Shown here one piece after another: positions 6,948-42,298 of a stretch of DNA of 45,978 nucleotides. The translations under genes were made by a program, and so were the position numbers. The notes under the pieces are model-generated. The model ran no database searches, was not told where the DNA came from, and was given only the letters and a program-made list of their open reading frames with translations. The number at the start of each line of letters is the position of its first letter. Position 1 is the stretch's first letter. The DNA is from a virus. The stretch is from IMG/VR virus record IMGVR_UViG_3300020060_000004, positions 1 through 45,978 of that record. One strand, 5' to 3'.

Positions 6948-6982
6948 TACGTACTCCTAACTCTATTCTTTTAATCTACAGG

Positions 6983-6995: not shown

Positions 6996-7006
6996 GGCCG
7001 TCGGGA

Positions 7007-7126: not shown

Positions 7127-7748
7127 TAATGATTGCGTCGAAGTCATTACTAAGATCAGCCAAGACCTCAGGGTCCTTAACGCGCCGCTGAATCGATTCG
7201 ATAATCTGCGCCACGACAAGCTTGAGGTTTTGAGTGTTCCCCTCACCTGAATTGTATCGCCCTGTGAGTTCGTAATAGAATTTGATAGCCTGTGTTTCGC
7301 CATTGGCAATCGCCGTCCTTAAGCCATTCTGTGCTTCGGCAATAGTGTCCTCGAAGCTGTCACTAGCAGACTGTAATACGAATTCCTTAAACTGCTTATC
7401 GCGCATCCACGCATTCCACTGCGTAGTCGTACACCCTACTTCTTTCAGCTTCGTCTGTAACGTCCGTCGATCGTGAACGTCTAGGAATTTAGTCGCCGCC
7501 GCGATCTGACTTGCCGTGAATTGTGACGGCTTCCCTTTAAGCTCCACGTGCATTACTACCCCACGCGCGTGCATAGCGAAGATAAACGTACCGTTCACCA
7601 TTAACGCAGGCATGTCTTCGTCAGGGAACGTTCTTTCCAGTTCACCTAACGTCGGAAACGTCTTACGACGCAGCCAGTACTCTTCACAGTAGTTCACAAT
7701 GTCTAGCTGGTCGCCTGTTAAAGGCACTCGCTTAACTTCAGTACTCAT
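7071..7748 (-). CDS. Putative small terminase (helix-turn-helix)
   Basis: This 225-residue protein is the first gene of the leftward operon. The central part (about 75-150) has the layout of phage small-terminase DNA-binding proteins: FTASQIAAATKFLDVHDRR, then a helix-turn-helix-like LKEVGCTTTQWNAWMRDKQF, then a helix (about FVLQSASDSFEDTIAEAQ). The N-terminus resembles an unrelated winged-helix-like segment (LGELERTFPDEDMP). It would recognise phage DNA and load TerL. Gene order fits, although several small genes separate it from terL. A general DNA-binding regulator remains possible. Confidence 0.65.
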   Translation of the reverse strand: MSTEVKRVPLTGDQLDIVNYCEEYWLRRKTFPTLGELERTFPDEDMPALMVNGTFIFAMHARGVVMHVELKGKPSQFTASQIAAATKFLDVHDRRTLQTKLKEVGCTTTQWNAWMRDKQFKEFVLQSASDSFEDTIAEAQNGLRTAIANGETQAIKFYYELTGRYNSGEGNTQNLKLVVAQIIESIQRRVKDPEVLADLSNDFDAIINGRRLAQAVIEPEYNRLL

Positions 7749-7817
7749 GTGCTCGATCCTCCTAATTACAGCATAGCACTGGTTATCTACAGAAGGGGCA
7801 TGGCTCCGCCACCAAAA

Positions 7818-7870
7818 CCCTGGTCAGGTACTCTATTTAAGCTACATACGGTCCTAGCCCCTGGTCAGGT
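7818..7870. repeat. 12-bp direct repeat CCCTGGTCAGGT
   Basis: CCCTGGTCAGGT occurs at 7818-7829 and again at 7859-7870, 41 bases apart start to start, about four helical turns. It would lie in the leader of the leftward operon. It could be a paired protein-binding site or part of an RNA structure. Confidence 0.7.
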
Positions 7871-7917
7871 TGATTGGGAGGCCGGTAACGAGACACTAAA
7901 TAGAGCAAATGGGGCTA
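7831..7917. other. Interleaved inverted repeats in late-operon leader
   Basis: CTCTATTTA (7831-7839) pairs with TAAATAGAG (7897-7905). TAGCCCC (7855-7861) pairs with GGGGCTA (7911-7917). The arms alternate A-B-A'-B', the order needed for a pseudoknot if transcribed. No folding program was run. Confidence 0.5.
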
Positions 7918-8051
7918 AGAAACGGACATATCGGTAGTCCAGATCGGATGCGGGGTGGGTCAGAGGGACCCTCGCCAAAGGCTCTCAGGACTAATTTATT
8001 AGGTATTTGGTCCTATTTTAGGTATAGATTAGCAGAAAAATTTTAGAGGTA

Positions 8052-19934: not shown

Positions 19935-20205
19935 TAGAAATACAGAAATGACTAAGTGTCTCAACTCTCTGTTTGGTTTCGTACAGATGCGTAGAGGCGG
20001 CCCTGTACTACGGCTCTGTAGAAAGCACTTAGACAAGTATCTAGACGCGTGTGACGGTCTTAATAAAGAGCCTGTTCGCTTATGTATTATGTCTAGGGAA
20101 ATGGAGAGAAATAAGACTTACGTAGAGTACACTCACGTTACTAGAATCAGATACACTGGATTTTATCGAGATTTAGAATGGAGCAGAGATGACCGAAGAG
20201 TATAA
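19912..20205 (+). CDS. Small basic Cys-containing protein (97 aa)
   Basis: The open frame extends upstream, but ATG 19912 has AGGGAA just before it. The basic product has four Cys residues in the first half (LCDRNTEMTKC, LRLCRKHL, DAC), a possible zinc fold, and a C-terminus rich in Arg and Tyr. It overlaps the previous small gene by 23 bases and the next gene by 17. Function unknown. Confidence 0.5.
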   Translation: MSSTTLCDRNTEMTKCLNSLFGFVQMRRGGPVLRLCRKHLDKYLDACDGLNKEPVRLCIMSREMERNKTYVEYTHVTRIRYTGFYRDLEWSRDDRRV

Positions 20206-20692
20206 GAATCCATTTCCTGGACAGACGCTACGTAAAGTAGACATCTGGTCTAACGAATATCAACAGTATCGTGAAGAAGTAATTCCTAGCGGAATTGAAC
20301 AGGCACAGATCGTCTGTTCTGATATGTGGGTTCCACTAGAGCCGGGTTATTACGCCGGTACTCAACTAGAGGGTATGGAGTCTAAGCATCACCGTGCCGA
20401 TAGGGATAGTCACAAGCCAATCCTAGATATCGACTTTCCTGCTAAGCTTGTACCTTCATCTACAGAAGGGCATTTCCATCTGTACTTGGATAAAGAGCTT
20501 AGCTGGGAGCAGTACGAGAAGCTTCTCAGAGCATTGGCTGATGCTGGAATTATCGAACAAGGCTATGCTAATGCTTCTATCGAACGTCGTTACAGTGCGG
20601 CTCGTTTGCCTTGGGTTAAGAAGGAAGTAAATCTAGAGCCCAACAAAACGCCAGACTTCTCTATAGGAGAGGCTGACGACGGGCCGTTTTAA
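20189..20692 (+). CDS. Possible minimal AEP-like protein
   Basis: This 167-residue protein starts at ATG 20189. The centre (about 80-105) has LDIDFPAKLVPSSTEGHFHL, that is D-x-D followed by S-x-x-G-x-H. This spacing resembles catalytic motifs I and II of archaeo-eukaryotic primases. It continues with YLDKELSWEQYEKLLRALAD. A third metal ligand is not obvious, so it may be an inactive or divergent relative. The gene sits directly before the replication/recombination block. AEP homology is my inference from motif spacing; the family is uncertain. Confidence 0.4.
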   Translation: MTEEYKNPFPGQTLRKVDIWSNEYQQYREEVIPSGIEQAQIVCSDMWVPLEPGYYAGTQLEGMESKHHRADRDSHKPILDIDFPAKLVPSSTEGHFHLYLDKELSWEQYEKLLRALADAGIIEQGYANASIERRYSAARLPWVKKEVNLEPNKTPDFSIGEADDGPF

Positions 20693-20696
20693 TCAC

Positions 20697-20725
20697 TTGA
20701 CAGGCTCAGAATCGTGTGGTACGCT
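20697..20725 (+). promoter_or_regulatory. Promoter of the recombination genes
   Basis: TTGACA (20697-20702), 17 bases, then TACGCT (20720-20725). It overlaps the region just after the stop at 20692 and drives the Cas4-like, Sak4-like and SSB-like genes. Confidence 0.7.
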
Positions 20726-20776
20726 GGGCATACAGGTTCCCTCACCTGCATTTGTGACACAGAATAGTGAGACCTA

Positions 20777-21679
20777 GTGAAGAAGATCAGCGGTACAGAA
20801 GTCGGTATGTTTAACACCTGCCAGCGACAGCACTATTATCGCTTTGGTTTAGACATCGAACCTCGCTTTGGTAACTTGGGTCCAGCACTGACTCGCGGCA
20901 TCATTGGTCACATGGCACTAGATGCTTACTATACTCTTATGCAGAAGGGTTACACAGTAGAGCAGTGTCGAGAGGCAGCCTATGACGTAATCACTACAAA
21001 GCTAATCGAGTTAGTGTCGTACGACCCAGACGATACAGCTAAGATGAAAATTATTGCTCAGTTGAAAGTACTAATCGCTGGGTACGTCGATCACTACAAA
21101 GAAGAGCCGTTCGAGGTATTACAAGTAGAGAAGTTTTACTCGGCGAAGGTAAGTGATGATGCTGAACACAATATGCGTCTTGATTTGCTTATTCAGTTTA
21201 CAAGCGGTCAATATCGTGGCGACTTGTGTGTCGTAGATTCAAAGTTCTTGTACAACTTTAAAACTGATAGAGAAATCAACATGGACAGCCAGCTTCCTAG
21301 GTATATTAAAACGCTTAAGGAAAATGGAATCACTGTCACCAAAGGAATGTTTAACCAGCTAAGGTATAGGCAGCTTAAGAATCCAGCTCCGCAAGATGTT
21401 TACCGCCGAGCCATGGTAAAGCCGACCACCACTAGGATAGACAAGATTTGGGCAGAGCAAGAACAGAACGTAGAAAATATTTATAGGCTTAAGGCTCTTC
21501 CTGTAGATGAATGGTCTCGCAAAGCAACTCGTAATATGGGACCCTTTACCTGTAAGTACTGTCCCTTCGCTTCACTGTGTGACAAAGAACTCGAAAATAC
21601 TAACATCAAAAATACACTCACCATGGATTACCAGCCTAATACATACGGATACGTAGACTTAGCCCTAGAGGATGCATAG
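20777..21679 (+). CDS. Cas4/RecB-like PD-(D/E)XK nuclease with Fe-S cluster
   Basis: This 300-residue protein has GTG 20777. Fe-S ligands appear as an N-terminal Cys (FNTCQRQHYYRFG, about residue 14) and a C-terminal trio CKYCPFASLC (about 258-267), as in Cas4/AddB-type nucleases. The nuclease core includes MRLDLLIQF and LCVVDSKF (about 134-155), giving D and D-x-K. Such phage enzymes resect DNA ends for recombination. It is followed, with overlap, by the Sak4-like ATPase and the SSB-like protein, forming a recombination module. It is unlinked to any CRISPR array here. Confidence 0.85.
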   Translation: MKKISGTEVGMFNTCQRQHYYRFGLDIEPRFGNLGPALTRGIIGHMALDAYYTLMQKGYTVEQCREAAYDVITTKLIELVSYDPDDTAKMKIIAQLKVLIAGYVDHYKEEPFEVLQVEKFYSAKVSDDAEHNMRLDLLIQFTSGQYRGDLCVVDSKFLYNFKTDREINMDSQLPRYIKTLKENGITVTKGMFNQLRYRQLKNPAPQDVYRRAMVKPTTTRIDKIWAEQEQNVENIYRLKALPVDEWSRKATRNMGPFTCKYCPFASLCDKELENTNIKNTLTMDYQPNTYGYVDLALEDA

Positions 21680-22464
21680 TGGATCAGAAGATGTTAGAAG
21701 CCTTAGAGAGGCAACGTAAGCCTATGTCTATCGCTGAGGAAGAGAGGCTGTTCCGTGGTATCCTTTACGGTGACTTCGGAGCGGGGAAGACTTCTCTAGC
21801 CGCAGAGATTGTTAGGGTAATTGGTGGGGATGCGTGCTGGATTACTACTGACTCAGCATGGGTAGTTCTGGATAAGTTTCCGGATCTACAGGAAAAGATC
21901 CATCGGCTCCCGTACACTGGCTTCTCTCAGCTACGATCCATTGCGGAAGCTCACGACGAAGGTATTGAACCGTATTCTAAGTTCAAGACCCTAGTGTGGG
22001 ACACAGTTTCTACTAGTACTCAGAACACTCTGACTAAACTAGTGGAGAAGGGGGAGTATTTCCCCCAGCAACAACTCTCTCGTGAGCTTGAAGGTTATCC
22101 GCAGTATAGGATGGCTGAGCGAGGGATGACGAAAACAGTAGAGGCACTACGTAACTCAAAACTAAACATTATATTCATTGCACATGTTAGACTACCTAAC
22201 GAAAACGATGAGAAAAAAGGCAAGTACGCAATTCGTCCTAACATGCCTGAAGCTAGTTATAAGGTAATCGCTCAAGAGTCTCAACTCATTGGCTATCTTC
22301 ATAAGCCTAAGAAAAGTGACGACCGTTTGCTACAGGTTGAAGGCACACTTACGGAGGCAGCAAAATCACAAATCCCGACGATTCCGGAAACGACTTACAA
22401 AGTCGAATCGATTCCGCCCCTGATACAGCAGTGGATGAGTGGCAGCTATCGGACGACGAACTAA
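21679..22464 (+). CDS. Sak4-like RecA-fold recombinase/ATPase
   Basis: This 261-residue protein has GTG 21679 overlapping the previous stop. Walker A is GDFGAGKTS (about 31-39) and Walker B is FKTLVWDTVS (about 103-112). Later FIAHVR is the sensor-like strand. This minimal RecA core without extra domains is typical of Sak4 single-strand annealing proteins, usually paired with an SSB, as here. It would promote recombination-dependent replication. A RAD55-like or DnaB-loader ATPase is the alternative. Confidence 0.8.
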   Translation: MDQKMLEALERQRKPMSIAEEERLFRGILYGDFGAGKTSLAAEIVRVIGGDACWITTDSAWVVLDKFPDLQEKIHRLPYTGFSQLRSIAEAHDEGIEPYSKFKTLVWDTVSTSTQNTLTKLVEKGEYFPQQQLSRELEGYPQYRMAERGMTKTVEALRNSKLNIIFIAHVRLPNENDEKKGKYAIRPNMPEASYKVIAQESQLIGYLHKPKKSDDRLLQVEGTLTEAAKSQIPTIPETTYKVESIPPLIQQWMSGSYRTTN

Positions 22465-22493
22465 CCGAGTATCAAGAGAAGAAAGAAAAGGCA

Positions 22494-23039
22494 ATGGTAG
22501 AAGAGTTCGATGACGATGACATCTTCGGTGGACTAGATGTTAGCGACGTAAGCGACGATCCCTTCAAGGTTGACGACGACACTTATCCCTGTGAAGTTAC
22601 TTCCTGTAAGGTCGAAACAAACGAAATGGGTAAGCGTTACCTTTACCTGAACTGGAAGATTAACACGCCTGGCGAGCCCTTCGATAAGGTCGGCCTACGG
22701 AACCGTTTAGAGATCTTCCCGTTCGATGCTAATGGCAAGCCGGTGCCTAAGGAACTTTGGGATGCTGACGTCATTCGGGGAATGGCTAACTTCATGAAGC
22801 TTCTGAGGGAAGGTTTCGATCTCTCGGAGGGTGAGCGTAACAAGTTCTCTCCGAAGATGGCCGTTGGTACAGAGATGTACTGTGTGGTTAAGAACCGTCC
22901 GTCTAAGACGGAAGGCGATACGCGTGTATTCGCTAACGTCGTCGCTACTCTTTCCCCGCGACTGTTCGCGGAGAGGGATACTAGCAACGGTTCACGTGGT
23001 CAGGCTGCCGATCAGGTTGCTTCTGACTTAGGCATGTAA
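22494..23039 (+). CDS. Single-stranded DNA-binding-like protein
   Basis: The frame is open from GTG 22431, which overlaps the previous gene. ATG 22494 has GAAAAGG upstream and starts at the acidic region (MVEEFDDDDIFGGLDVSD), so I prefer it, giving 181 residues. The core (about 25-150) looks like an OB-type fold: YPCEVTSCKVETNEMGKRYL, YLNWKIN, then GTEMYCVVKNRPSK. Position directly after the Sak4-like gene supports an SSB-like or DUF669-like partner. Confidence 0.65.
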   Translation: MVEEFDDDDIFGGLDVSDVSDDPFKVDDDTYPCEVTSCKVETNEMGKRYLYLNWKINTPGEPFDKVGLRNRLEIFPFDANGKPVPKELWDADVIRGMANFMKLLREGFDLSEGERNKFSPKMAVGTEMYCVVKNRPSKTEGDTRVFANVVATLSPRLFAERDTSNGSRGQAADQVASDLGM

Positions 23040-23163
23040 TAACTGTGGGGATCCGGCTAGCATCTCGATAAATACCGAGTGCAGCACAGTAAGTGGGTAA
23101 GCCGGTAAGCGTGTAAGGTGGGCAAGGCACGTTCAACTAAACAACTAGAGAGAAAGAGATATA

Positions 23164-23406
23164 GTGACTACAGCAGAGTATGGCATGTCCTTTAGTGAGG
23201 CTCTGGAAGCCCTTAAGGAAGGCGAGCAAGTTACCCGTAAGGGTTGGAACGGTAAAGGCATGTACCTGGAACTCCAGGTACCTGACGCTAACTCGAAGAT
23301 GTCTCGCCCTTACATCTTCATGAGTACTGTTAATAAGGAACTTGTTCCTTGGGTTGCCTCGCAGTCTGATCTTCTTGAAGAAGATTGGCGTACTCTAGAA
23401 GAGTAG
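23164..23406 (+). CDS. tad2: Tad2-like anti-Thoeris protein (DUF2829)
   Basis: This 80-residue protein has a GTG start at 23164. It shows the DUF2829/Tad2 layout: MSFSEALEALKEGEQVTRKG, WNGKGMYLELQVP, RPYIFMST, then VPWVASQSDLLEEDW. Proteins of this family bind and sequester the cyclic ADP-ribose-type signal of Thoeris and so block the defence. An alternative start is ATG 23182. A hairpin (23408-23427) follows the stop. Family membership is clear from the motifs. The actual ligand and anti-defence activity are inferred. Confidence 0.85.
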   Translation: MTTAEYGMSFSEALEALKEGEQVTRKGWNGKGMYLELQVPDANSKMSRPYIFMSTVNKELVPWVASQSDLLEEDWRTLEE

Positions 23407-23407
23407 T

Positions 23408-23427
23408 CTCTGCGCGGCAACGCAGAG
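23408..23427. terminator. Hairpin after the Tad2-like gene
   Basis: CTCTGCG (23408-23414) pairs with CGCAGAG (23421-23427) around a six-base loop, immediately after the stop codon. It lacks a uridine tract. Confidence 0.5.
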
Positions 23428-23494
23428 ATAGAGCGCAGTTGCCTATATTCTAGTGTGCGCTAGTTATAGGAGTTTGTACAGCTAGGACGCTCCG

Positions 23495-23525
23495 GTCTAC
23501 AGGTTCCATGGGCGGGCCTGTAGAC
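23495..23525. other. Inverted pair of CTGTAGA motifs before tRNA
   Basis: GTCTACAGG (23495-23503) and CCTGTAGAC (23517-23525) form a perfect 9-bp inverted repeat made of two CTGTAGA motifs facing each other. It lies 11 bases upstream of the first tRNA. It could be a protein-binding pair, a processing hairpin or a terminator. Confidence 0.65.
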
Positions 23526-23536
23526 TGTCCTAGTAA

Positions 23537-23609
23537 GCCCCGTTAGCTCAGTATGGTACGAGCGCATCTCCTAGAGGTGAGGCCGCCGGTTCGATCCCGG
23601 TACGGGGCA
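23537..23609 (+). tRNA. tRNA, anticodon uncertain (CCT Arg or CTA)
   Basis: Acceptor GCCCCGT pairs with ACGGGGC, the D stem is GCTC/GAGC and the T arm is GCCGG-TTCGATC-CCGGT, so this is a genuine tRNA fold. The anticodon arm is irregular. CATC/GGTG encloses the seven-base loop TCCTAGA, which would give anticodon CTA with C at position 33. Reading the loop as CTCCTAG gives CCT with a proper T33 but a poor stem. CCT would read AGG and match the other rare-codon tRNAs here. CTA would read amber codons. Confidence 0.75.
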
Positions 23610-23750
23610 CGGAAGTATAGTGAGGGCGTGGTCAGGTCCTAGGTCCTACTCCACCACGTGATGCCAATGTCTCCCGTAGTATTAGAGTACTCAGAGAGAA
23701 ACATAGCTATACTGACCTCCCTTAAGGTACCGTGAAACGCCTTAAGGTGA

Positions 23751-23824
23751 GGCCCCGTATCCCAATTGGCAGAGGAATTCGACTTAAAATCGAATAGTTG
23801 TCGGTTCGAGTCCGACCGGGGCTA
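23751..23824 (+). tRNA. tRNA-Leu (anticodon TAA)
   Basis: Acceptor GGCCCCG pairs with CGGGGCT. The anticodon arm is TTCGA-CTTAAAA-TCGAA with anticodon TAA, and the T arm is GTCGG-TTCGAGT-CCGAC. The variable loop is only five bases (TAGTT), although bacterial leucine tRNAs normally have a long variable arm; short-armed versions occur in phages. It would read TTA, a rare codon in high-GC actinobacteria. Confidence 0.9.
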
Positions 23825-23848
23825 CGCAAATAGAGAAAGGATTAACTG

Positions 23849-24451
23849 GTGAATCAGCGTGAAGAACTAGAGAATCTGTATAAGCAATACGCCAGTGATC
23901 CTGTATTCGCAGATCTAAGACAACCTGGAATTGAATTAGTACCTGGCAGAGGACCGCTTAACCCTGACATCATGCTTATCGGAGAAGCTCCAGGCGAGAT
24001 GGAGAATGCTAATAGACTGGCATTCGTAGGTAAGGCAGGCAACAACTTAACTATGCTTCTACAGAGGGCAGGGATTGATCCCTATAATGTCTTCCTTACT
24101 AACGTAGTTAAGTACTGGCCTAAGTCTCCTGTCAAGTACCGTAAGCGAATCAATAAAGAAGAGAACTTCACTTATGAAGAAGCTGACGCGTCCGACGGTT
24201 ACTTACAAGAAGAGATTCGGATCGTTGCCCCCAAGATTGTGGGTCTTCTTGGTAGATTCCCCTTACAGGCAATTTACCCTGAAAAGACCGAAGTTTTTAG
24301 AGATCACGGTCTACTTCTAGACGACAAATACGTTGTGCTGTACCACCCGGCGGTGCTAAACTATGATCCGTCACCCACGAGAAAAGCTCTCCTACAGGGG
24401 GGCTACAACAAGCTCAAGGAGTACTTAGATGAACGAGCTGCCGTTAGGTAA
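23849..24451 (+). CDS. Uracil-DNA glycosylase, family 4-like
   Basis: This 200-residue protein has GTG 23849 behind AAAGG. Motif 1 is GEAPGEMENANRLAFVGKAG (about 47-66) and motif 2 is LYHPAVLNYDPSP (about 163-175), both typical of the family 4/5 fold. The four Cys residues that hold the Fe-S cluster of classical family 4 enzymes are absent, so it is a cluster-less variant. It would remove uracil from DNA, protecting the phage genome against deamination. It lies between two tRNAs and the Acb2-like gene, and overlaps the latter by 23 bases. Confidence 0.85.
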   Translation: MNQREELENLYKQYASDPVFADLRQPGIELVPGRGPLNPDIMLIGEAPGEMENANRLAFVGKAGNNLTMLLQRAGIDPYNVFLTNVVKYWPKSPVKYRKRINKEENFTYEEADASDGYLQEEIRIVAPKIVGLLGRFPLQAIYPEKTEVFRDHGLLLDDKYVVLYHPAVLNYDPSPTRKALLQGGYNKLKEYLDERAAVR

Positions 24452-24683
24452 CACCGATCCTAGTACGTTATCTGCTGATGAAATGCAGCAGATTAACGGG
24501 TTCAAAAAGGCTGAGAGAGCATTTGCTCAGTTACTTAAGGATCGTATGGACTGGCTAGCTCAGAACGGTCAGTCTCGCAGTGAGGGAATGCGTCAGTTAG
24601 CACTCGCTCGTACTGCCTTAGAAGATGCGTCTATGCACGCAAGCCGTTCCATCTTCTTACCGAAGACCGTATGGGATGAGTAA
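24429..24683 (+). CDS. Acb2-like cyclic-nucleotide sponge (anti-CBASS)
   Basis: This 84-residue protein starts at ATG 24429, overlapping the UDG end. It shows the small helical-hairpin layout of the Acb2/Tad1 hairpin family: STLSADEMQQINGFKKAERA, a middle helix AQLLKDRMDWLAQNG, then LALARTALEDASMHASRSIF with LP after it. Acb2 proteins bind cyclic di- and trinucleotides, and some Thoeris signals, and so silence CBASS. The match is by pattern only. A Tad2-like gene one kilobase upstream strengthens the anti-defence reading. Confidence 0.6.
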   Translation: MNELPLGNTDPSTLSADEMQQINGFKKAERAFAQLLKDRMDWLAQNGQSRSEGMRQLALARTALEDASMHASRSIFLPKTVWDE

Positions 24684-25636
24684 TGTCAGAACTGCTCGAA
24701 TACAACGATCTCATAGAAGTACTACAGACATGTGATCCGCGCGTAGCAAGAATCCGACTATCTAGAGACCACAACCAATACACAACGATCCTTACTGTAG
24801 AAGTCAAATTAATCTCTGATCCAGTTAGCTTCATTAAACTGGCTTGGTATGACATATCTCAAAAATCAATGCAAACACTGATTAAAGCTCTTACTGGCCA
24901 GATTAAAGACGCGTGTGACTCAATACTTCCTCTTGATGGCCCTGAAATCCTTAAGTGTAATTTTTCATCAGACAACGCAACAGCCCATTGGTTAGCTCTT
25001 GAATCTATTAGTAGTTGGTATGAAAAAACTTTTTATGAGTATGTAGCGTATCAACACAAGATTCACGCAGCGGTAGGCATAATTGTAAACACTAAGAATA
25101 GCCTTAAAAAAGATCATATAATGCCTACCCTGTACCAGTTTTTAACTAAAGAAGAACAGACACACGCACAGTATCACCAGGCTAAACTTGATGAGTATAT
25201 TTTCGATGTAGAGCAAAAGGCAAAAGAAGCTAAAGAAAAAGCTTACGCTAAAATGCTTGAGGCTCAGAAAGCTAAAGAACAGTCTATTGCTTATAAGAAT
25301 AATCTGTACAAGCAGTCGCCTGAGTGGATGAAGCACCAGTCTATGTGGGGCGAGTACGGCCCACAGTACGACAAGAGTGAGAACCAACTAAGCTCCGGGG
25401 CGCATGAGTTGTTTAACAGCGTTCCCGGTTTGAAGGAGAAGGTTAAGTGTCCCAAGTGTCATGTGACTAGGGATCTTTTCAATCTCATTCAACATATTAA
25501 CGACAATCCAGATTCCCATCACATGACGCGTAACGATATCGCTGATTGGCTTGAGTCTTTGGATGTCAACTTAGAGATACAGATGGGAGATACGCCCAAT
25601 GTTAACGAACGAGACGGCCAATGGCACGACCTCTAA
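24683..25636 (+). CDS. Hypothetical protein with coiled coil and C-terminal zinc finger
   Basis: This 317-residue protein starts at ATG 24683, sharing a base with the previous stop. The N-terminal 130 residues are a mixed fold. Residues about 150-215 form a Lys-, Glu- and Ala-rich coiled coil (QKAKEAKEKAYAKMLEAQ). The C-terminal region (about 250-285) has CPKCHVTRDLFNLIQHINDN then a His pair, a possible zinc finger. It is AT-richer than its neighbours. It directly follows the Acb2-like gene, so an anti-defence or host-takeover role is possible but unsupported. Confidence 0.6.
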   Translation: MSELLEYNDLIEVLQTCDPRVARIRLSRDHNQYTTILTVEVKLISDPVSFIKLAWYDISQKSMQTLIKALTGQIKDACDSILPLDGPEILKCNFSSDNATAHWLALESISSWYEKTFYEYVAYQHKIHAAVGIIVNTKNSLKKDHIMPTLYQFLTKEEQTHAQYHQAKLDEYIFDVEQKAKEAKEKAYAKMLEAQKAKEQSIAYKNNLYKQSPEWMKHQSMWGEYGPQYDKSENQLSSGAHELFNSVPGLKEKVKCPKCHVTRDLFNLIQHINDNPDSHHMTRNDIADWLESLDVNLEIQMGDTPNVNERDGQWHDL

Positions 25637-25838
25637 GGTTGACCAGAAGGCCGACGAGCTTAAGGAAATGCTTGGCGAGATCGAGATGGGTGTCCTTGCT
25701 GCCCCTCTTACGCTTGCTGACCTTATCCGTGAAGGCACGCGGGTCACCGGTGAGACCACTGGTTGGGGTAACGGCCTTAACGCCTGCGCCCTTGGCGCGG
25801 CTGTAATCTCGGCCAAGGCACGAGATATCCTCAAGTAG
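25599..25838 (+). CDS. Small Ala/Gly-rich hypothetical protein (79 aa)
   Basis: ATG 25599 overlaps the end of the previous gene by 38 bases. The C-terminal part (LADLIREGTRVTGETTGWG, then ALGAAVISAKARDILK) resembles small phage proteins with a conserved helical core, but I do not recognise the family. More GC-rich than the preceding gene. Confidence 0.55.
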   Translation: MLTNETANGTTSKVDQKADELKEMLGEIEMGVLAAPLTLADLIREGTRVTGETTGWGNGLNACALGAAVISAKARDILK

Positions 25839-25901
25839 TACTGGTGGTGCCCTCTAATCAGACAGGGTAATGAGTACTCAAAGACTAACAGCCACTTAGG
25901 G

Positions 25902-25972
25902 TCTACAGGAAAGTGACGTAAGCACAGTACTACGTTAACGCTGGTTCTATGTCCGGGCGGCTTTCCTGTAGA
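25902..25972. other. Second inverted pair of CTGTAGA motifs before tRNA
   Basis: TCTACAGGAAAG (25902-25913) and CTTTCCTGTAGA (25961-25972) are a perfect 12-bp inverted repeat, each arm containing the CTGTAGA motif. The right arm ends four bases before the third tRNA, the same arrangement as at 23495-23525. Confidence 0.65.
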
Positions 25973-25976
25973 TCAA

Positions 25977-26049
25977 ACCTCATTAGCTCAGTGGATAGAG
26001 CAAGGGCTTTCTAATCCCTAGGTCGCAGGTTCGAGTCCTGTATGAGGTG
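25977..26049 (+). tRNA. tRNA-Arg (anticodon TCT)
   Basis: Acceptor ACCTCAT pairs with ATGAGGT, the D stem is GCTC/GAGC, the anticodon arm is AGGGC-TTTCTAA-TCCCT with anticodon TCT, and the T arm is GCAGG-TTCGAGT-CCTGT. One mismatch (C-T) closes the anticodon stem. It reads AGA, a rare codon in high-GC actinobacteria. The long frame of the next gene begins inside this tRNA, which shows that its true start is downstream. Confidence 0.9.
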
Positions 26050-26077
26050 CTTAAACTGTTACGAAAGGAAGTGGTCC

Positions 26078-27811
26078 GTGGGGAGTGTTCAAGAACTGAG
26101 TCCTTACACGGATCTTGGTAGGTTTTTTGACACTATGTACGGTATCGCCAATGGCTATGCGTACAGTGCTACAAAGAATCCAGAGACAGGAGCATTCAAT
26201 CAATACTACTTTTCTTGGCCCAAAGAGCGAGAAAAGCTCATCGCTCACTGCATCGCGTATACTGACACAGTTGAAGTCTATTACTCCCCCGCACTCTTTA
26301 AGCGACCGGGAGCTAAAAAGGAGGACTTTCTCGGCACTTACTTCGTCTGGGCAGAGTTTGACGGGAACGCTCCAGACACTATTAGTGGAATACCATCGCC
26401 ATCACTTAAAGTCCGATCAAGTACCGATCGAAATCAACATTGGTATTGGCGACTTGACCATTTTGAAACTCGAATTGATGTCGTTGAAGCGATTTCTCAG
26501 AAAATCACGTATCATGCTGAAGGCGACCTCTCAGTATGGAACGTCAACCGAGTACTACGACCTCCCGGAACCAAGCATCACGAGAGTGGCCTTCTTGTTA
26601 GCGAAATATATCGTGACATTAAACCCACTCCAAATGAATCCTTCTCGGGGCTTCCTGATATACCAACAAGCCTCAACCAAGAAGTAGATACTACTAACGT
26701 TCCGTCTCCTGTACTAGTCATGATGAAGTATCCGTTTAATCAAGATGAGACGGACTTCTTTATCACTCCCTCTATGGCTAAGGGAGACGAGAAAAAAGGT
26801 GTCAAGGGACGCTCTAGTGCACTAACTAAGTTCGCCCATATCTGTATTGAGAAAGGCATGGCTAACGTAGAAGCTCTCTCACTACTGTTAGTCCTAGATA
26901 ACCGTTGGGGTAAGTTTAAGAACCGGTCTGACCAGAAAGAACGCCTAGTCGGGATTATTAACCACGTACGCTCTAGGCATCCTGTAGACCCAATTACTGA
27001 GGATCTACAGAAAGAACATGCCTTTAAGGTATACACTTATGATGAGTTCATTAACTCAGAGATTAAGATGGAGTGGCAAGTGGAGAATCTTCTACAGAAG
27101 AAGGGTTCCCTTATTGTCACGGGAGCGCCTAACGTAGGTAAATCCCAGCTATCTCTCCGGTTCGCAGAAAAGGCAGCACGAGGCCAGGACTTCTTACAAT
27201 GGAAGATTCCTAAGCCTATGAAGATTCTAGTCATTTCAATGGAGATGCAGTTTGAAGAGCTAAACTTCCTAATGAAAGCAATGGACATCGAGCAAAATGA
27301 GGACTTGCGTGCAAACCTACTTATATCGGCTCCTGGTCATAGCGTCAAGCTCAACGACAAAGCACGCCAGGCGGAGCTTAATCGAATCATTGAAGAATTC
27401 CAGCCTGACGGTGCTATTTTCGACTCTTTTGGTATGGCTATTAACGATGACATGTCTTCGGACAAAATCATTCTGGAAACATTCGATTACATTAATGGAA
27501 CCCTACGAGACGAATACGGGCTCTTTACCTGGTTCATCCACCACAATCGGAAAGCACAGGTTGGGAACCGCAAACCCAATAAGCTTGACGACATGTATGG
27601 TAATCAATACATCGGTGCTAACATCAACACCGGAATCGGACTGTACGGTACGCCCAAAGGGATCGAAGTCTCCTGCCTTAAACTCCGAATGGCTAAGAAG
27701 TTTAACACCTTTCTCGTCAGGCGAACAGACAAACTTGATTTCGAAGTACTCGAAGGTTTCGTAGCCGACGACGATATTCCTATTATGGGAGGCTTCCAAG
27801 ATGAAATCTGA
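26078..27811 (+). CDS. PrimPol-helicase (primase/helicase)
   Basis: The open frame begins in the tRNA, but GTG 26078 with GAAAGGAAG upstream gives a proper 577-residue protein. The N-terminal part (about 1-210) resembles AEP PrimPol: FVWAEFDGN, then RSSTDRNQHWYWRLDHF and NRVLRPPGTKHH. The C-terminal part is a RecA-fold replicative helicase: Walker A GAPNVGKS (about 348-355), SMEMQFEEL and Walker B DGAIFDSFGMA (about 443-453). It would prime and unwind at the replication fork. The stop overlaps the polymerase start by 11 bases. Confidence 0.82.
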   Translation: MGSVQELSPYTDLGRFFDTMYGIANGYAYSATKNPETGAFNQYYFSWPKEREKLIAHCIAYTDTVEVYYSPALFKRPGAKKEDFLGTYFVWAEFDGNAPDTISGIPSPSLKVRSSTDRNQHWYWRLDHFETRIDVVEAISQKITYHAEGDLSVWNVNRVLRPPGTKHHESGLLVSEIYRDIKPTPNESFSGLPDIPTSLNQEVDTTNVPSPVLVMMKYPFNQDETDFFITPSMAKGDEKKGVKGRSSALTKFAHICIEKGMANVEALSLLLVLDNRWGKFKNRSDQKERLVGIINHVRSRHPVDPITEDLQKEHAFKVYTYDEFINSEIKMEWQVENLLQKKGSLIVTGAPNVGKSQLSLRFAEKAARGQDFLQWKIPKPMKILVISMEMQFEELNFLMKAMDIEQNEDLRANLLISAPGHSVKLNDKARQAELNRIIEEFQPDGAIFDSFGMAINDDMSSDKIILETFDYINGTLRDEYGLFTWFIHHNRKAQVGNRKPNKLDDMYGNQYIGANINTGIGLYGTPKGIEVSCLKLRMAKKFNTFLVRRTDKLDFEVLEGFVADDDIPIMGGFQDEI

Positions 27812-29564
27812 TACATACGTCTCGGAGGCTGATCTACAGGAACATCTAGAGCTTATAGATAAGGCCCCTTCCGTTGCTGTAGATACAGAGGGAACACTTA
27901 CTCACCCATATAGCCAGACTTGGGGGCTTAGTCTCTCAGCTTTCGGTAAGGCTGAATACTATGCCTTCAATCACCAGATTGATCCGCACAACAACCTCCC
28001 TAAGGAGTGGCTCGGCAAGATTAAGATGTGCCTTGAAAATCACCCACGCGTAGTCATGCACCACGCTAAGCACGATATCAAGGCATTGCGTAACTTAGAC
28101 ATCGACCTGTACGATAGGTCCTTCAATTGCACTATGATGAAGGCCCATATGGTTGATGAGAATTACGCTTCTAAGGCTCTAGACTGGATGTCCCGCCACT
28201 TTGGGGGAGAGCCTAAGCGTAATGATGAAGTAATGGATAAGGTTAAGAAGGCGTTCGGATGGGGTTACATCCCTGTAGAGATTATCCGTCCGTACGGCGC
28301 TAATGACGCACTAATTACAGAGGAACTAGACAATAAGCTTGAGCCTAAGTTTGAAGTTCAGTTTCCAGAGCGTAAAGCGCCGGACCTCTGGGAACATGAG
28401 CGAGCTTTTACGAAGTTTCTTATCGACATTGAAGATAACGGTATTCTCATTGACCAGGACCTGGCACAGAGAGAGTACGAGCGTGGCACTAAAAAGATGG
28501 CGGAGTTAAGGTCCTCTCTTGGCTTTAACCCTGGCAGTACTAAAGACTTAGGCCGTGTTCTAATTGAAGAGCTTGGTTTGCCTGTAGTGAAGCGAACTAA
28601 GACTAACGCCCCAAGCTTCGACAAGTATGCAATGGAAGAATATGACAGACTTCTTTCACAAACTAACGACTCTAGAGCCAGGCGAATCTTGGAATATCGC
28701 GGATGGCAAAAGACCACTTCCTCAAACTACCGACCTTATCTTGAATTGCTTGGGCCAGATGGACGCCTACGACCTAACTATAAGCAGCATGGAACGCATA
28801 CGGGACGTCTGTCATGCGAATTACCTAACCTTCAGCAGATACCCAAGCAGTCAGCTAAGGATTGGAACGGTAATCTCAAGGCTGCATTCATTGTCGACGT
28901 CGGCAGGACAGCTTGGGAGTTTGATTACTCTCAGCTTGAATTCCGACTTGGCGCAGCCTACGGACGAGTACAGCAACTTATCGATATCTTCGCTGATGCA
29001 GGCCGTGATGTCTTTAGCGAGATCGCTAAGACTCTCGGAATGGGACGTCAACAAGTCAAAACCCTTGTTTACACTATTCAGTTCGGGGGCGGTGCAAACC
29101 GAATTCACCAAGTCTTCGAGGTCTCTATAGCTGAGGCTCAGAAGATTATTAAGAACTTCTACAAGCAGTATGCTGGTTTGCAGAAGATTGCCGCTATGGC
29201 TCAAGCTAAGGCTTGGCAGAATGGCTACGTCACTTATTGGACTGGGCGTAGGCGGCACTTTGTGAATCTACAGAAAGAGGCGCACAAAGCGTTTAACTCT
29301 GTGATTCAGGGGGGCGCATTTGAGATTACTAAGCGCCAGATGGTCCGTCTTAGGGAAGAGGGGCTACACAACGATGAGTGTAAGATTGACCTTCAAGTCC
29401 ACGACTCTATCAGGGTCGACGTTGAGGAAGGTAAAGAACATATCTATATTCCAGAGATTAAGCGCGTACTTGAAGACGTCAAGAAGCATAAAGACTTTGG
29501 AGTCGACTTTAGAATCGACATCCACAAATGGAACACTGACGAAAAGTATGAACTCGCCGCGTAA
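27801..29564 (+). CDS. polA: DNA polymerase, family A
   Basis: This 587-residue protein starts at ATG 27801. The N-terminal 3'-5' exonuclease carries VAVDTEGTL (about 25-33) and MHHAKHDIKAL. Polymerase motif A is FDYSQLEFRLGA (about 374), motif B is RQQVKTLVYTIQFGGG (about 415-430) and motif C is LQVHDSIRVD (about 530). There is no 5'-3' exonuclease domain, as in other phage enzymes. In the O-helix the position equal to E. coli Phe762 is Tyr and the one equal to Tyr766 is Phe, a T7-like change affecting sugar selection. It lies directly after the helicase-primase. Confidence 0.93.
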   Translation: MKSDTYVSEADLQEHLELIDKAPSVAVDTEGTLTHPYSQTWGLSLSAFGKAEYYAFNHQIDPHNNLPKEWLGKIKMCLENHPRVVMHHAKHDIKALRNLDIDLYDRSFNCTMMKAHMVDENYASKALDWMSRHFGGEPKRNDEVMDKVKKAFGWGYIPVEIIRPYGANDALITEELDNKLEPKFEVQFPERKAPDLWEHERAFTKFLIDIEDNGILIDQDLAQREYERGTKKMAELRSSLGFNPGSTKDLGRVLIEELGLPVVKRTKTNAPSFDKYAMEEYDRLLSQTNDSRARRILEYRGWQKTTSSNYRPYLELLGPDGRLRPNYKQHGTHTGRLSCELPNLQQIPKQSAKDWNGNLKAAFIVDVGRTAWEFDYSQLEFRLGAAYGRVQQLIDIFADAGRDVFSEIAKTLGMGRQQVKTLVYTIQFGGGANRIHQVFEVSIAEAQKIIKNFYKQYAGLQKIAAMAQAKAWQNGYVTYWTGRRRHFVNLQKEAHKAFNSVIQGGAFEITKRQMVRLREEGLHNDECKIDLQVHDSIRVDVEEGKEHIYIPEIKRVLEDVKKHKDFGVDFRIDIHKWNTDEKYELAA

Positions 29565-29691
29565 AGTACTTACTAAGACTGGTTGGGTCTGGTACCGTCA
29601 AGATGATGGCAAGTACTGGACGCTCGGATGCAAGAAGCACAGGACATTAGCTTACCTTCTCAAGAAATACGGAATAGAGGCAGTACGATGA
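29548..29691 (+). CDS. Small basic protein (47 aa)
   Basis: ATG 29548 lies 17 bases inside the polymerase end. The frame extends far upstream, but there it only shadows the polymerase. The product (KVLTKTGWVWYRQDDGKYW, then CKKHRTLAYLLKKYG) is basic and aromatic. The stop overlaps the next ATG (ATGA). Function unknown. Confidence 0.55.
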   Translation: MNSPRKVLTKTGWVWYRQDDGKYWTLGCKKHRTLAYLLKKYGIEAVR

Positions 29692-29948
29692 GCGTTGACA
29701 CTCCAGAAGGTCTGTTCGAAGGTCTAGTAGAGGGACCTGTAACGGAAGAATACGATGGTGCTAAGCAGTATCAATCTACACTGGGACAGATTGAACAATA
29801 CAAAGAAGACCTTATTCATCAGCGTGAGTACGCAATTAAGATGAGCGATAGACACGTCGAAGAAGCTAGGGCTTGGCGATCCACTGCTAGCGCTATCACT
29901 GAATTCTTGCACGATGAAAACCGCGATAAAGGAATGGCAGAGGGCTGA
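29688..29948 (+). CDS. Small helical hypothetical protein (86 aa)
   Basis: ATG 29688 overlaps the previous TGA. The acidic N-terminus (TPEGLFEGLVEGPVTEEYDG) is followed by a long helix (LGQIEQYKEDLIHQREYAIK). It ends overlapping the next ATG. Possibly a coiled-coil partner of the resolvase that follows. Confidence 0.6.
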   Translation: MSVDTPEGLFEGLVEGPVTEEYDGAKQYQSTLGQIEQYKEDLIHQREYAIKMSDRHVEEARAWRSTASAITEFLHDENRDKGMAEG

Positions 29949-30418
29949 TGAACGACCTAACTTATGTCTCGTTCGACCCCGGGGGTCGTTCTGTAGATAG
30001 GACTCATGGGGTCTGTACGTGGGATGAGTTAGGTAACCTCATGATGATGTACACGATGAATATGGAAGAGTTGGATGCTTTTCTTATAGAGTGCGAGAAG
30101 TATCCAACTCTTACCACGTTTATCTACGAAGGCTACGCTATCAGAAAGGATCATTTACAGTGGCACGCGGGATCGAAAGTAGAGACAGCGCAGACGATCG
30201 GGGCGATCAAGAGTGCGGGCCGAAGGATGTCTTTAATCCTTGTAGAGCAACCGGCAAGCATTTTGGGCACTGCCCCAAATTGGTCTGGGATGCCGATGCC
30301 AAAAAACCACAGGATCAGCCACGGTCCCAGCGCTTACAATCACGGGTACTACTATCTGTACAAGACACTGGGAATTCTCAAGCCTAGGGTGTTGGAACGC
30401 TTAAAGAAGAAGGGCTAG
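29948..30418 (+). CDS. RuvC-like Holliday junction resolvase
   Basis: This 156-residue protein starts at ATG 29948. RNase H-fold motifs are VSFDPGGRS (first Asp, about residue 10), TFIYEGYA (Glu, about 61), KVETAQTIGAIKSAG and a C-terminal SAYNHGYYYLY. In related resolvases the last region has an Asp (H-x-x-D-A); here Ser occupies that place (HGPSAYNHG), so one metal ligand may be supplied differently or lost. It would resolve branched DNA before packaging and is the last but one gene of the replication block. Confidence 0.7.
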   Translation: MNDLTYVSFDPGGRSVDRTHGVCTWDELGNLMMMYTMNMEELDAFLIECEKYPTLTTFIYEGYAIRKDHLQWHAGSKVETAQTIGAIKSAGRRMSLILVEQPASILGTAPNWSGMPMPKNHRISHGPSAYNHGYYYLYKTLGILKPRVLERLKKKG

Positions 30419-30420
30419 GT

Positions 30421-30909
30421 ATGCCTAGACAATCACAACAGCAGAGAATAGAGAAAGCCCTAACTGCTGCTGCTAAAGCTTTAGGTGTAGAAACAGAAGA
30501 TCTAGACGTCAAGCGGGACGATCCTGAACACCTTGAAGATAAGATGCTGGACGCCCAAGCTGTCGTTGACTATTTCACTAAGTCAAAGGGCTTTAAGGAA
30601 ATCCCCTGTAGAGAATGCGGGATGATCTTTGCTTACAATTGGTATTTCGATGGCATTAAGTACTGTAGCCCTCACTGCCTTAAGCTGAGTCTTGAAAAGA
30701 TTGGTATTGTGTGGGATCTAGAACGGCCAGCAGCTCGGCGGTGGTCTCAAAGCCGTCCTGCGATAATTCCTCCACCAGCTCTAGAGATTCTGAAACAGAT
30801 AATGCCTGAGAAGATAGAACAGTCTTCTCCAGTCCTATCGTTAGTGGTGCCTCCAGAAGACCCGCCTCCTGATACAACTGACGGACTGTTAGCTTTATTA
30901 TTGGGTTAG
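30421..30909 (+). CDS. Zinc-knuckle protein with Pro-rich tail
   Basis: This 162-residue protein starts at ATG 30421, three bases after the resolvase. The N-terminus is helical. Residues about 62-85 have IPCRECGMIFAYNWYFDGIK then YCSPHC, a four-Cys zinc knuckle. The C-terminus (about 105-162) is Pro-rich (PAIIPPPALEILKQIMPE, VVPPEDPPPDTTDG). Its last 230 bases are antisense to the 3' part of whiB. It is the last rightward gene. Confidence 0.65.
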   Translation: MPRQSQQQRIEKALTAAAKALGVETEDLDVKRDDPEHLEDKMLDAQAVVDYFTKSKGFKEIPCRECGMIFAYNWYFDGIKYCSPHCLKLSLEKIGIVWDLERPAARRWSQSRPAIIPPPALEILKQIMPEKIEQSSPVLSLVVPPEDPPPDTTDGLLALLLG

Positions 30910-31129
30910 TCTTCTTACGCTCATCGTGAGAAGTACCCCCCCAGATACCAGTAAGATATTCATGCGCAAGGGCGTACGATTTGCAGAGTCCTCTTACAGG
31001 ACAATCACTGCAAAACGTACGCCCTTTTGCTACGCCTGCTGTACCTCTAGGAAAGAAAATACTGTCGTATTCTTCGCTTCCCAGATTCTTACACTTAGCC
31101 CGCTGAGACCAACTCTGAATACTCTCCAT
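30680..31129 (-). CDS. whiB: WhiB-family transcriptional regulator
   Basis: This 149-residue protein starts at ATG 31129. Residues 1-75 have the WhiB features: four Cys at 13, 40, 43 and 49 (FCSDCPVRGLC) that bind a 4Fe-4S cluster, and the G-I/V-W-G-G turn (LTGIWGGTSHDERKK) at about 61-75. WhiB proteins bind the host sigma factor and redirect transcription, and phage versions can interfere with host WhiB function. Residues about 76-149 are an extra tail encoded opposite the gene at 30421-30909. It is the last gene of the leftward unit, directly after the endolysin. Confidence 0.88.
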   Translation of the reverse strand: MESIQSWSQRAKCKNLGSEEYDSIFFPRGTAGVAKGRTFCSDCPVRGLCKSYALAHEYLTGIWGGTSHDERKKTNPIIKLTVRQLYQEAGLLEAPLTIGLEKTVLSSQALSVSESLELVEELSQDGFETTAELLAVLDPTQYQSFQDSA

Positions 31130-37354: not shown

Positions 37355-38650
37355 CTACCCTCTACCGAAGTACTGTAACGCCGCATCCCTTAGTGCGTTA
37401 ATCTCTGGTCCGGATAATCCTTGCTGCCTGGCCTGCTCTACAATCTGCTCAGCCTTAGCCTCAGGAGTAGCGTTAGAACCTGTCTGCGGGTCTAGTCCAC
37501 TCTTGATAAGGCCCTGGCTTAAGCCACCAACGAAAGTATCTAAGCCTCGCTGCGCAGCACCCTGGTCCAAGCCGAGAGACATCAGATACTTAGGTACGTC
37601 CTGTAGAGTCTTAACACCTGTAGTCTTATTCAATCCAGCCATCTTAACCTGCGCATCTAGTGCGTCAGAATTAAGTCCACGGCCTAAGTTGATAGACGCT
37701 AGGAAGTTGTTAAAGTCAGACTGACTGCGATCGAGAGCATTCTTCTGAGATTGCTGTTGCATCTGGCTCTTATTAGCAGTATAAGCCTGAGCCTTAGCAG
37801 CCTCGTTAGCGCCAATCTTGTCATTGTACTGATTCAGTAATTCGGTAAGCTGAGACATGATGTCAGCCGACCTCTGGGTACCCTCAGTACGAGCCATAGA
37901 GCTACCCTTTTGGGCGTAGTCTACTGCTCCTTGCTTCTCCGTCGTAAGCGCCGCCGCTTGGGTTTGTTTATCAGTATTAGAGCGATTGACAAAGTACTCT
38001 TTGTCACGGGCTTGTCCTGGAGTAATACCAGGAGCTGCCGCTTGAATGTTAAGGCGCTGGAATAAGTCCTCTTGCTGCTTCTGAGTATCATTGTACTGTT
38101 GCTCAATCCCAGAGTTTAGCTGGTCATACTGCTGATTACTCTTACCAGTAGTCTCATCATAGTTCTTCTGAATGCCAGGAATATCTCCCTGCAAAGAACC
38201 ACCAAGCTGGTTAAAGATGTCAATGACACTCTTCTGGTTCTGTTCTCCACGACGCGTCGCTGCCGCCGCTTGGCTGCGTAAGCCAGCGATAACCGGGTCA
38301 TACTGCGCACTTGCTGCCGCCCTAGCGCCTTCCTCAATGCCCGAATCATTCATATAACGACTTGGGTCAGAGAGTGCTCTAAGTTGGTCTAGGATGCTAT
38401 CTGTAGATGACTGATCTTCATCACCGCTAGCAAACGGACTCATGCTGTCAATTAAGCCAGTAGTGGGATACTTGTAGCTAGGAGAAGGCAGTGGGTTACC
38501 GGCATAAGCCCTAGTAATCGGCTTTCTGCCATTGAACAGAGGGCTATTCTTAACAAATTGGTTAGCTTGTGCTTGAAATCCCTCGTTCTGCATAAAGCCG
38601 AGATTCGCAGAAGGCCGAAGAAGCTCAAGGGCATCAGTAACCCAAGACAT
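37355..38650 (-). CDS. Gln-rich internal virion protein
   Basis: This 431-residue protein is rich in Gln, Ala, Asn and Ser, with long amphipathic helices (AAAATRRGEQNQKSVIDIFN, YNDTQKQQEDLFQRLNIQA). There is no signal peptide or membrane helix. Composition and position between the giant protein and smaller Gln-rich genes suggest an internal core component ejected with DNA. It ends six bases before the giant gene start. Confidence 0.6.
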   Translation of the reverse strand: MSWVTDALELLRPSANLGFMQNEGFQAQANQFVKNSPLFNGRKPITRAYAGNPLPSPSYKYPTTGLIDSMSPFASGDEDQSSTDSILDQLRALSDPSRYMNDSGIEEGARAAASAQYDPVIAGLRSQAAAATRRGEQNQKSVIDIFNQLGGSLQGDIPGIQKNYDETTGKSNQQYDQLNSGIEQQYNDTQKQQEDLFQRLNIQAAAPGITPGQARDKEYFVNRSNTDKQTQAAALTTEKQGAVDYAQKGSSMARTEGTQRSADIMSQLTELLNQYNDKIGANEAAKAQAYTANKSQMQQQSQKNALDRSQSDFNNFLASINLGRGLNSDALDAQVKMAGLNKTTGVKTLQDVPKYLMSLGLDQGAAQRGLDTFVGGLSQGLIKSGLDPQTGSNATPEAKAEQIVEQARQQGLSGPEINALRDAALQYFGRG

Positions 38651-41641: not shown

Positions 41642-42298
41642 CTACCACTGATCTTCCGCTAATACCGTAATTGTGGGATACGTAGCTTCTTCTTTCCAGT
41701 CATCTCGACCACGAAGAACCCTAAGATCTCCTGCGATCTGTTGGCCCTTAGCACCTACTGCGTCCCAGTCTTCATCCATCTCATACGCGTAAGCGAGACA
41801 CATGCGGACAATAGTGGGATGATAAACCTCAGGCAGCTCAGGAATGTCTACATCAGATGCAACCAATATTGGCTTACGATTGTAGTAGATCTTCATAGCT
41901 GCTGCGAGATTATGATCAGGAGGGAAGAACAAAGTAATCTTATTTGCAAAGATCATATAGCAAATAGGAGTACCGTTACGAGAAGTGTTACCGTCCCAGC
42001 TACCGATGTACTCATTAAACTCGTTAATCGAGTAGCCCTTGAGCTGAGTATAAGCTACTTCTCCGGGAGCTTTATAAGACAGGCTGCGGAAGATAAGAGT
42101 ATCTACAGGAAGGGAATACTCAGCCTGCCCGGCTACTGATGCTGAGACAGCCGAAGCCTCGAATAAGCCTTCATTCTCCTTAGCAATTTCCATCTGCGCA
42201 TCGTTGATATAACGAATCAGATCAGTATCATCGATCTGTACACCTGACTCATCACCGAACGCCCGCTTAACGCGTGTCTTAATCTCCCCAACGTTCAT
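41642..42298 (-). CDS. Head-tail adaptor (gp4-like)
   Basis: This 218-residue protein has an N-terminal helical region typical of P22 gp4-like / T7 gp11-like adaptors: VGEIKTRVKRAFGDESG, DTDLIRYINDAQMEIAKENE. A beta-rich middle (AGQAEYSLPVDTLIFRSLSY) precedes a C-terminal helix (IVRMCLAYAYEMDEDWDAVG). It would dock under the portal and hold the nozzle. It is immediately followed by the nozzle gene. Confidence 0.8.
   Translation of the reverse strand: MNVGEIKTRVKRAFGDESGVQIDDTDLIRYINDAQMEIAKENEGLFEASAVSASVAGQAEYSLPVDTLIFRSLSYKAPGEVAYTQLKGYSINEFNEYIGSWDGNTSRNGTPICYMIFANKITLFFPPDHNLAAAMKIYYNRKPILVASDVDIPELPEVYHPTIVRMCLAYAYEMDEDWDAVGAKGQQIAGDLRVLRGRDDWKEEATYPTITVLAEDQW

Follow-up and report, generated by a model that had tools for sequence, protein, structure and literature searches.

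Single phage proteins that act as sponges for nucleotide immune signals are already known, and those closest to the two genes considered here are Tad2 (SPO1 Gp34.65, ModTad2 and SptTad2; PF11195), Acb2 with T4 Vs.4 (PF24729, PHROG 717) and, more distantly, Tad1. In Vs.4, Y8 and F82 stack on the bases and Y8, H11, K23 and R79 give polar contacts; the Y8A mutation lowers binding of cyclic GMP-AMP (cGAMP) more than 5-fold, F82A is worse, at more than 25-fold, and mutations at L29, A66, A73 and A77 abolish the oligomers (excerpt of PMC10097602). In Tad2, the cyclic-dinucleotide site lies in an insertion between β2 and β5, separate from the pockets for the ADP-ribose-derived signal gcADPR, and Tad1 carries an N-terminal β-sheet (excerpt of PMC12043709). 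A Tad2-like and an Acb2-like gene are found 1 kb apart in IMG/VR virus record IMGVR_UViG_3300020060_000004, whose 45,978 nucleotides were analyzed at full length and are referred to below as the window. We compare both with the described systems and report that genes of these two types form a recurrent pair in phages and prophages of different hosts, at a minority of Tad2 loci. This pair is the new element, and no mention of it was found in the literature covered, which consisted of open-licence papers.

The Tad2-like and Acb2-like proteins

The two genes are as follows.

23164..23406, plus strand: Tad2-like putative sponge gene, short form; 80 residues, GTG start, PF11195
24429..24683, plus strand: Acb2/Tad1-hairpin gene; 84 residues, PF24729, overlapping the end of the preceding gene by 23 nucleotides

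Both frames are open, and the coordinates given for them in a preliminary description of the same DNA are correct. The Tad2-like open reading frame (ORF) matches PF11195 at 92 bits against a curated cut-off of 25 (E 3.4e-26), and its product matches solved Tad2 proteins over the whole length (ModTad2, E 1.8e-15; SPO1 Tad2, 2.6e-14; SptTad2, 4.5e-13), in agreement with the earlier assignment to Tad2 (DUF2829). It belongs to a short-form set with the proteins of L101, Curiosium, MalagasyRose and L111, which are 55–68% identical to it and share 30 invariant columns. The core from WNG to W-x-A-S comprises 32 residues in the window and 45 in SPO1 Tad2 and ModTad2 (the latter a manual count on printed alignments), so that the window protein is shorter in the stretch linked to cyclic dinucleotides. 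The β2–β5 insertion, a feature of dinucleotide-binding Tad2 proteins and not of the whole family, is not found in it. From this short core we infer that the window Tad2 would take gcADPR-type ligands and not cyclic dinucleotides.

The Acb2-like ORF scores 44.3 bits with PF24729 (curated cut-off 27; E 2e-11) and falls, like the Vs.4 homologues (excerpt of PMC10097602), in PHROG 717 (E 1.4e-8). Alone, its product finds Vs.4 weakly among solved structures (E 0.017); a profile of the protein and 13 relatives reaches solved Acb2 at 1.1e-15, Vs.4 at 6.5e-15 and Tad1 at 3e-4. The AlphaFold2 model, with a mean predicted local distance difference test (pLDDT) score of 82, contains a three-residue helix (11–13) followed by two long antiparallel helices (16–45 and 52–76). 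When this model was compared with the PDB by Foldseek, the six best matches were all Vs.4 or Acb2, at probability 1.00 and template modelling (TM) scores of 0.62–0.67 by query; Tad1 is not among the 50 matches listed, which is no evidence against a relation. The comparison with viral predicted structures gave matches of E 0.016 and worse, among them named Acb2/Tad1 hairpin proteins. The protein therefore resembles Acb2 and Vs.4 in the hairpin domain with its two long helices and in most contact and interface residues, and the Acb2/Tad1 hairpin call made earlier is borne out by the family and profile matches and by the predicted structure. Its likeness to Tad1 is limited to the distant profile match to the hairpin domain: solved Tad1 chains have 123–138 residues, and their N-terminal β-sheet is absent from the window model.

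Pairing of Tad2 and hairpin genes

The association of the two gene families was measured in a sample of 80 viral and 80 genome loci picked by Tad2 alone. These loci are the best 80 of 586 and the best 80 of 156 confirmed relatives, so that the sample lies near the short form. Clustering at 85% identity gave 138 clusters, with singletons counted, and the local profile recovered Tad2 in 159 of the 160. A hairpin gene lies at most 5 kb from Tad2 at 19 loci, corresponding to 15 distinct clusters, and always on the Tad2 strand. In 13 of these clusters both domains are within 60 nucleotides of each other, the hairpin domain standing upstream of Tad2 in 4 and downstream in 9, and in the other two the distance is 282 and 710 nucleotides. 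Random placement gave a mean of 0.44 adjacent clusters and a maximum of 6 in 20,000 trials. Because 13 were observed against 0.44 expected, on either side of Tad2, the pairing is real and exists in both orders. The PF24729 cut-off was passed by all 15 cluster representatives and that of PF11195 by all five Tad2 neighbors checked.

Adjacent pairs are present in the named genomes of Amycolatopsis eburnea, Mycolicibacterium sphagni, Paenibacillus bouchesdurhonensis and a Marinosulfonomonas metagenome-assembled genome. At L101, which was found via Acb2 and whose hairpin protein is the same as that of the A. eburnea pair, the two genes overlap by 4 nucleotides and are located between terminase- and portal-like genes, as labeled by reading the ORFs by eye. 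In Mycobacterium phage MalagasyRose, found via Tad2, gp4 (PF11195, 3.7e-23) touches gp5 (PF24729, 2.4e-22) beside an annotated tRNA with anticodon CTA. The window also joins a Tad2-like and a hairpin gene, and like MalagasyRose it has a CTA tRNA call nearby. It holds, however, a loose form of the pair: the genes are directly adjacent in MalagasyRose and in the Amycolatopsis prophage (L101, L200), whereas a uracil-DNA glycosylase (UDG) gene and two tRNAs intervene in the window. The recurrence of the pair suggests that phages carry the two sponge genes as a set.

Two other analyses of the pair were set aside. An early chance estimate from four genomes, two of them with adjacent genes (P 0.006), was post hoc and used guessed gene counts for two of the genomes; it is superseded by the random-placement test. 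Tad2 proteins with a hairpin neighbor were shorter than the others over the 150 measured loci (P 0.004; 9 of 159 loci were not measurable) and gave P 0.33 in the viral loci alone, and since short Tad2 queries had also been used to select the loci, no claim is made on length.

A different neighbor of Tad2 was seen in Aeromonas phage Ahp1_CNU-2021 (L114, 1492–3213), where a Tad2-like gene adjoins an annotated nicotinamide phosphoribosyltransferase gene. The two may act together, because NAD+ reconstitution is a further strategy against Thoeris (excerpt of PMC12043709).

The tRNA-bearing cargo interval

The window DNA polymerase is closest to those of Arthrobacter phages such as Casserole and Jasmine (39–40% identity), followed by Cellulosimicrobium phage DS1 (37%), and relatives share with the window the gene order exonuclease, AAA, single-stranded DNA-binding protein (SSB)-like gene, primase/helicase and PolA. 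The virus is probably a Jasminevirus-like phage with an actinobacterial host. Megablast of 20000–30000 against phages gave zero matches, so that no phage record is similar at the nucleotide level over this region. Outside it, the minus-strand gene at 30680–31129 may by its motif be a WhiB-type regulator; in the corresponding region of Jasmine a gene is annotated as WhiB-like. The sponge genes of the window sit between replication genes, in a cargo interval that carries tRNAs and that contains or is bordered by the following features.

22431..23039, plus strand: SSB-like gene (a working label) bounding the interval on the left; weak match to PHROG 378 (E 0.04), assigned by position and family across relatives
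23537..23610, plus strand: tRNA-like gene, anticodon CTA, doubtful; called by ARAGORN, under the Rfam threshold
23751..23825, plus strand: tRNA-Leu(TAA), called by ARAGORN and Rfam; frequent in the same interval of relatives
23849..24451, plus strand: UDG-superfamily gene of 200 residues between both sponge genes; PF03167, E 3.5e-26
24683..25636, plus strand: 317-residue gene with variable N-terminus and conserved C-terminal domain; same cargo interval, membership in a sponge cassette not supported
25599..25838, plus strand: 79-residue conserved partner of the 317-residue gene; same cargo interval, membership in a sponge cassette not supported
25977..26050, plus strand: tRNA-Arg(TCT), called by ARAGORN and Rfam
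26042..27811, plus strand: primase/helicase-like gene bounding the interval on the right; aligns with genes annotated as primase/helicases in Jasmine-type phages

The UDG gene and two of the ARAGORN tRNAs occupy the 1,022 nucleotides that separate the sponge genes, close to the 1 kb with UDG and tRNAs described before, and the third tRNA follows the 317/79-residue pair. The UDG scores under the cut-off of the NCBIfam family-4 model. The true start of the primase/helicase-like gene may lie downstream, because the listed one overlaps the tRNA by 9 nucleotides. Scans of the viral collection with single window proteins yielded one weak relative of the UDG and none of the Acb2-like, primase and 317-residue proteins; alignment queries of the same collection did retrieve relatives where single-protein queries had failed.

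A primase profile retrieved 39 viral loci. When L030 and the window are added, clustering of the primases at 90% identity leaves 35 distinct groups, and in 26 of these, counting the window, the interval is complete between the SSB-like gene and the primase. Its length ranges from 46 bases, in the Jasmine cluster, to 3,447. Of these 26 intervals, 18 contain tRNAs, 8 a UDG gene, 5 the 317/79-residue pair, 4 a hairpin gene and 1 Tad2. The four with hairpin genes are those of the window, the L048 cluster, L057 and L058, the three relatives being confirmed by Pfam (E 1.4e-17 to 4.4e-19), and the closest relatives of the window have the interval without sponge genes. Over whole records, a hairpin gene above the cut-off is present in 15 of 43 relatives, near-duplicates included, and Tad2 in one of the 43, the record of L057, where it is away from the interval. 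A preference of hairpin genes for this interval (3 of 11 distinct relatives; P 0.01–0.03 by assumed length) was considered and rejected, the numbers being small and one contig consisting mostly of interval.

The Leu and Arg tRNAs pass the Rfam threshold and the one with anticodon CTA (amber) falls short of it. Position 33 of this last tRNA is a C and its anticodon stem contains a mismatch, so it may be degenerate. CTA tRNAs were also called in L019 (6513–6586), L028 (1478–1551) and MalagasyRose (L112, 445–529). The tRNA called as Leu(TAA) has 75 nucleotides and lacks a long variable arm; a leucine tRNA is expected to have one. Because a CTA tRNA is present, amber recoding was considered. In 59 window genes picked by eye the stops are TAA in 31, TAG in 16 and TGA in 12; of the TAG ends, 13 reach another in-frame stop within 30 codons, one hits the window end and two enter the next gene in frame. 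Genome-wide recoding is rejected; amber suppression at single sites is possible. The two genes that run on, at 37355–38650 and 41642–42298 on the minus strand, extend in frame by 300 codons or more, into the gene that follows, and amber readthrough would fuse their products to the following proteins, an arrangement that among 59 genes may be due to chance. There are proposals and demonstrations that tRNAs of phages act against defences that cleave tRNA (excerpts of PMC10264068, PMC13096335 and PMC11555353), and such a role is possible for those of the interval.

The 317- and 79-residue ORFs gave no convincing family in Pfam, PHROG or NCBIfam. The 79-residue protein shares 51–59% identity with proteins from Rhodococcus phage Trina and from Streptomyces phages, and a scan with its family reached 20 viral loci. 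The C-terminal domain of the 317-residue protein was found at 28 loci besides the window, several of which are the same phage twice and most of which were chosen via the 79-residue protein; it lies just upstream of the 79-residue gene at all loci chosen by that protein except L034, where both searches land on one ORF region. The N-terminus of the 317-residue family is neither conserved nor confidently modeled. The two genes form a conserved module (window 24683–25838; L017–L036 and L040–L042) with a second protein of about 70–80 residues, and in large phages of Streptomyces and Rhodococcus it is often close to tRNAs; in the Streptomyces phages examined the pair comes after a Ro-like RNA-binding gene and before a tRNA. 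A function by fold was rejected for the 317-residue protein, whose model has a mean pLDDT of 61 and no PDB match at E below 1.0 by Foldseek, with weak short matches to zinc-finger-like domains. In the PHROG search its family met two unnamed families, each matched by 1 of 18 members, and the 79-residue family (6 members) none. The C-terminal domain shows a zinc-finger-like C-x2-C ... H in the window and several relatives, the cysteines missing in the Streptomyces homologues; L021 has seven consecutive ORFs with this domain (5359–7963), and L033 two copies of the pair.

Alternative readings and implications

We consider it probable, from homology, that the two small genes of this phage act in counter-defence as sponges, with Thoeris-type signals and those of cyclic oligonucleotide-based antiphage signaling systems (CBASS) as likely targets. 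Directly behind this reading stand the homology of both proteins, the hairpin fold predicted by the model and the finding that the two gene families recur as direct neighbors. The Tad2-like protein would most likely bind the ADP-ribose-derived Thoeris signal, of gcADPR type, and keep it from its effector; the Acb2-like protein would most likely oligomerize and bind cyclic oligonucleotides of CBASS-like systems; and between them the two proteins would deal with two classes of nucleotide alarm signal. One would then expect the proteins to bind their ligands, to assemble as a tetramer and a hexamer, and to protect the phage when it infects. Several results weigh against this reading. Direct adjacency is not found in the window itself, and in its own phage group co-occurrence of the two families is not significant (Fisher P 0.13). 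No hairpin gene is present in the fetched flanks, some of them ending at contig ends, of 123 of the 138 Tad2 clusters; a hairpin gene above the cut-off occurs in 1 of 9 Tad2-bearing phage records, with a sub-cut-off match in a second, and among 37 records with a hairpin gene Tad2 is present in one. The Foldseek E-values for Vs.4 and Acb2 are weak (0.12–0.36), and the VIA-align Z of 9.0 for Vs.4, on a scale where values under about 13 can be common for helical hairpins, is equalled by unrelated proteins of this shape. Finally, Tyr8 and His11 of Vs.4 have no counterpart in the Acb2-like protein.

This last point opens the possibility, doubtful in our estimate, that the Acb2-like protein has kept its fold and oligomer and lost cyclic-dinucleotide binding, having turned to another ligand (e.g., cyclic trinucleotides at a separate Acb2 site) or decayed. 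Its residues 1–24 contain zero aromatics and zero histidines, and no longer N-terminus is open because a TAG codon directly precedes the ATG. All other 13 proteins of the alignment (A8) have Tyr or Phe at the Tyr8 motif, and Y8A weakens cGAMP binding. The Microbacterium homologue L011 may also lack the aromatic, its alignment at this place being uncertain. Against a loss stand the intact ORF, the retention, relative to T4-like Vs.4 (L008), of the contacts K23 (K26 in the window), R79 (R73), F82 (F76) and S74 (S68), and the greater harm done by F82A than by Y8A. At the hexamer interface three of four positions are identical, A66 (A60), A73 (A67) and A77 (A71), and L29 is replaced by Phe. The dinucleotide pocket, whose absence the preliminary description had named as a counterargument, thus appears from the alignment to be partly kept (Lys23, Arg79, Phe82) and partly gone. 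With no counterpart of Tyr8 and His11, the protein is classed here as a member of the hairpin family and not as a dinucleotide sponge, and its ligand range may be shifted.

That the Tad2-like protein works as an AcrIIA7-type anti-CRISPR, or against some other target, seems improbable: two solved relatives were deposited as CRISPR inhibitors (8kbi, E 9.7e-12; AcrIIA7 9kzr, 7.1e-11), but the closest are Tad2 proteins, and the pairing with hairpin genes in other phages points to nucleotide signals. The interval could also be a tRNA or translation site on which the sponge genes landed as passengers, close to each other by chance. Its prevailing tRNA content, the single Tad2 and the sponge-free intervals of the closest relatives fit this rather unlikely account, while hairpin genes in the same interval of three other distinct relatives and the direct pairs elsewhere speak against it. 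The preliminary description had taken all of 23164–25838 as an anti-defence island and the 317/79-residue pair as candidate new anti-defence genes by association. In its favor, the pair does stand with the sponge genes in the window, and tRNAs carried by phages can in their own right oppose defences that cleave tRNA (excerpts of PMC10264068 and PMC13096335). Yet among 27 records with the pair, duplicates included, Tad2 is absent and a hairpin gene is present in two, more than 40 kb away, these being the only two sponge families sought; the window relatives L030, L040, L041 and L042, two of them short contigs, have the pair in the same interval and neither family in the record; and in Streptomyces phages it stands between a Ro-like RNA-binding gene and a tRNA. 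Since the pair recurs without sponges, its anti-defence role by association is not supported, and we give the island as a whole little credence; the association of the Tad2 and hairpin families, as measured in the loci picked by Tad2, is real. Judged by its neighbors, the pair may, as a guess, work near tRNA or RNA handling. The tRNAs, the UDG and the 317/79-residue genes share the cargo interval with the sponges, and the locus illustrates a limit of guilt by association, in that unrelated modules gather in a tRNA-rich cargo site.

Returning to the reading of two sponge-class genes, a bolder version can be proposed tentatively, with the odds against it: a two-gene double-sponge set in which the short Tad2, devoid of the cyclic-dinucleotide insertion, would take Thoeris signals and the Acb2-type protein CBASS signals, the window Acb2-type protein, without the stacking tyrosine, being able to block some signals and yet avoid a Panoptes-like guard. 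With the Y8A mutation, Acb2 no longer activates the Panoptes guard system (excerpt of PMC12657218). The pair makes such a division of ligands between its two halves directly testable and provides a mining rule, to inspect the gene beside a Tad2. A recurrent Tad2 and Acb2 pair would amount to a single module in which phages package their coverage of two nucleotide-signaling immune systems.

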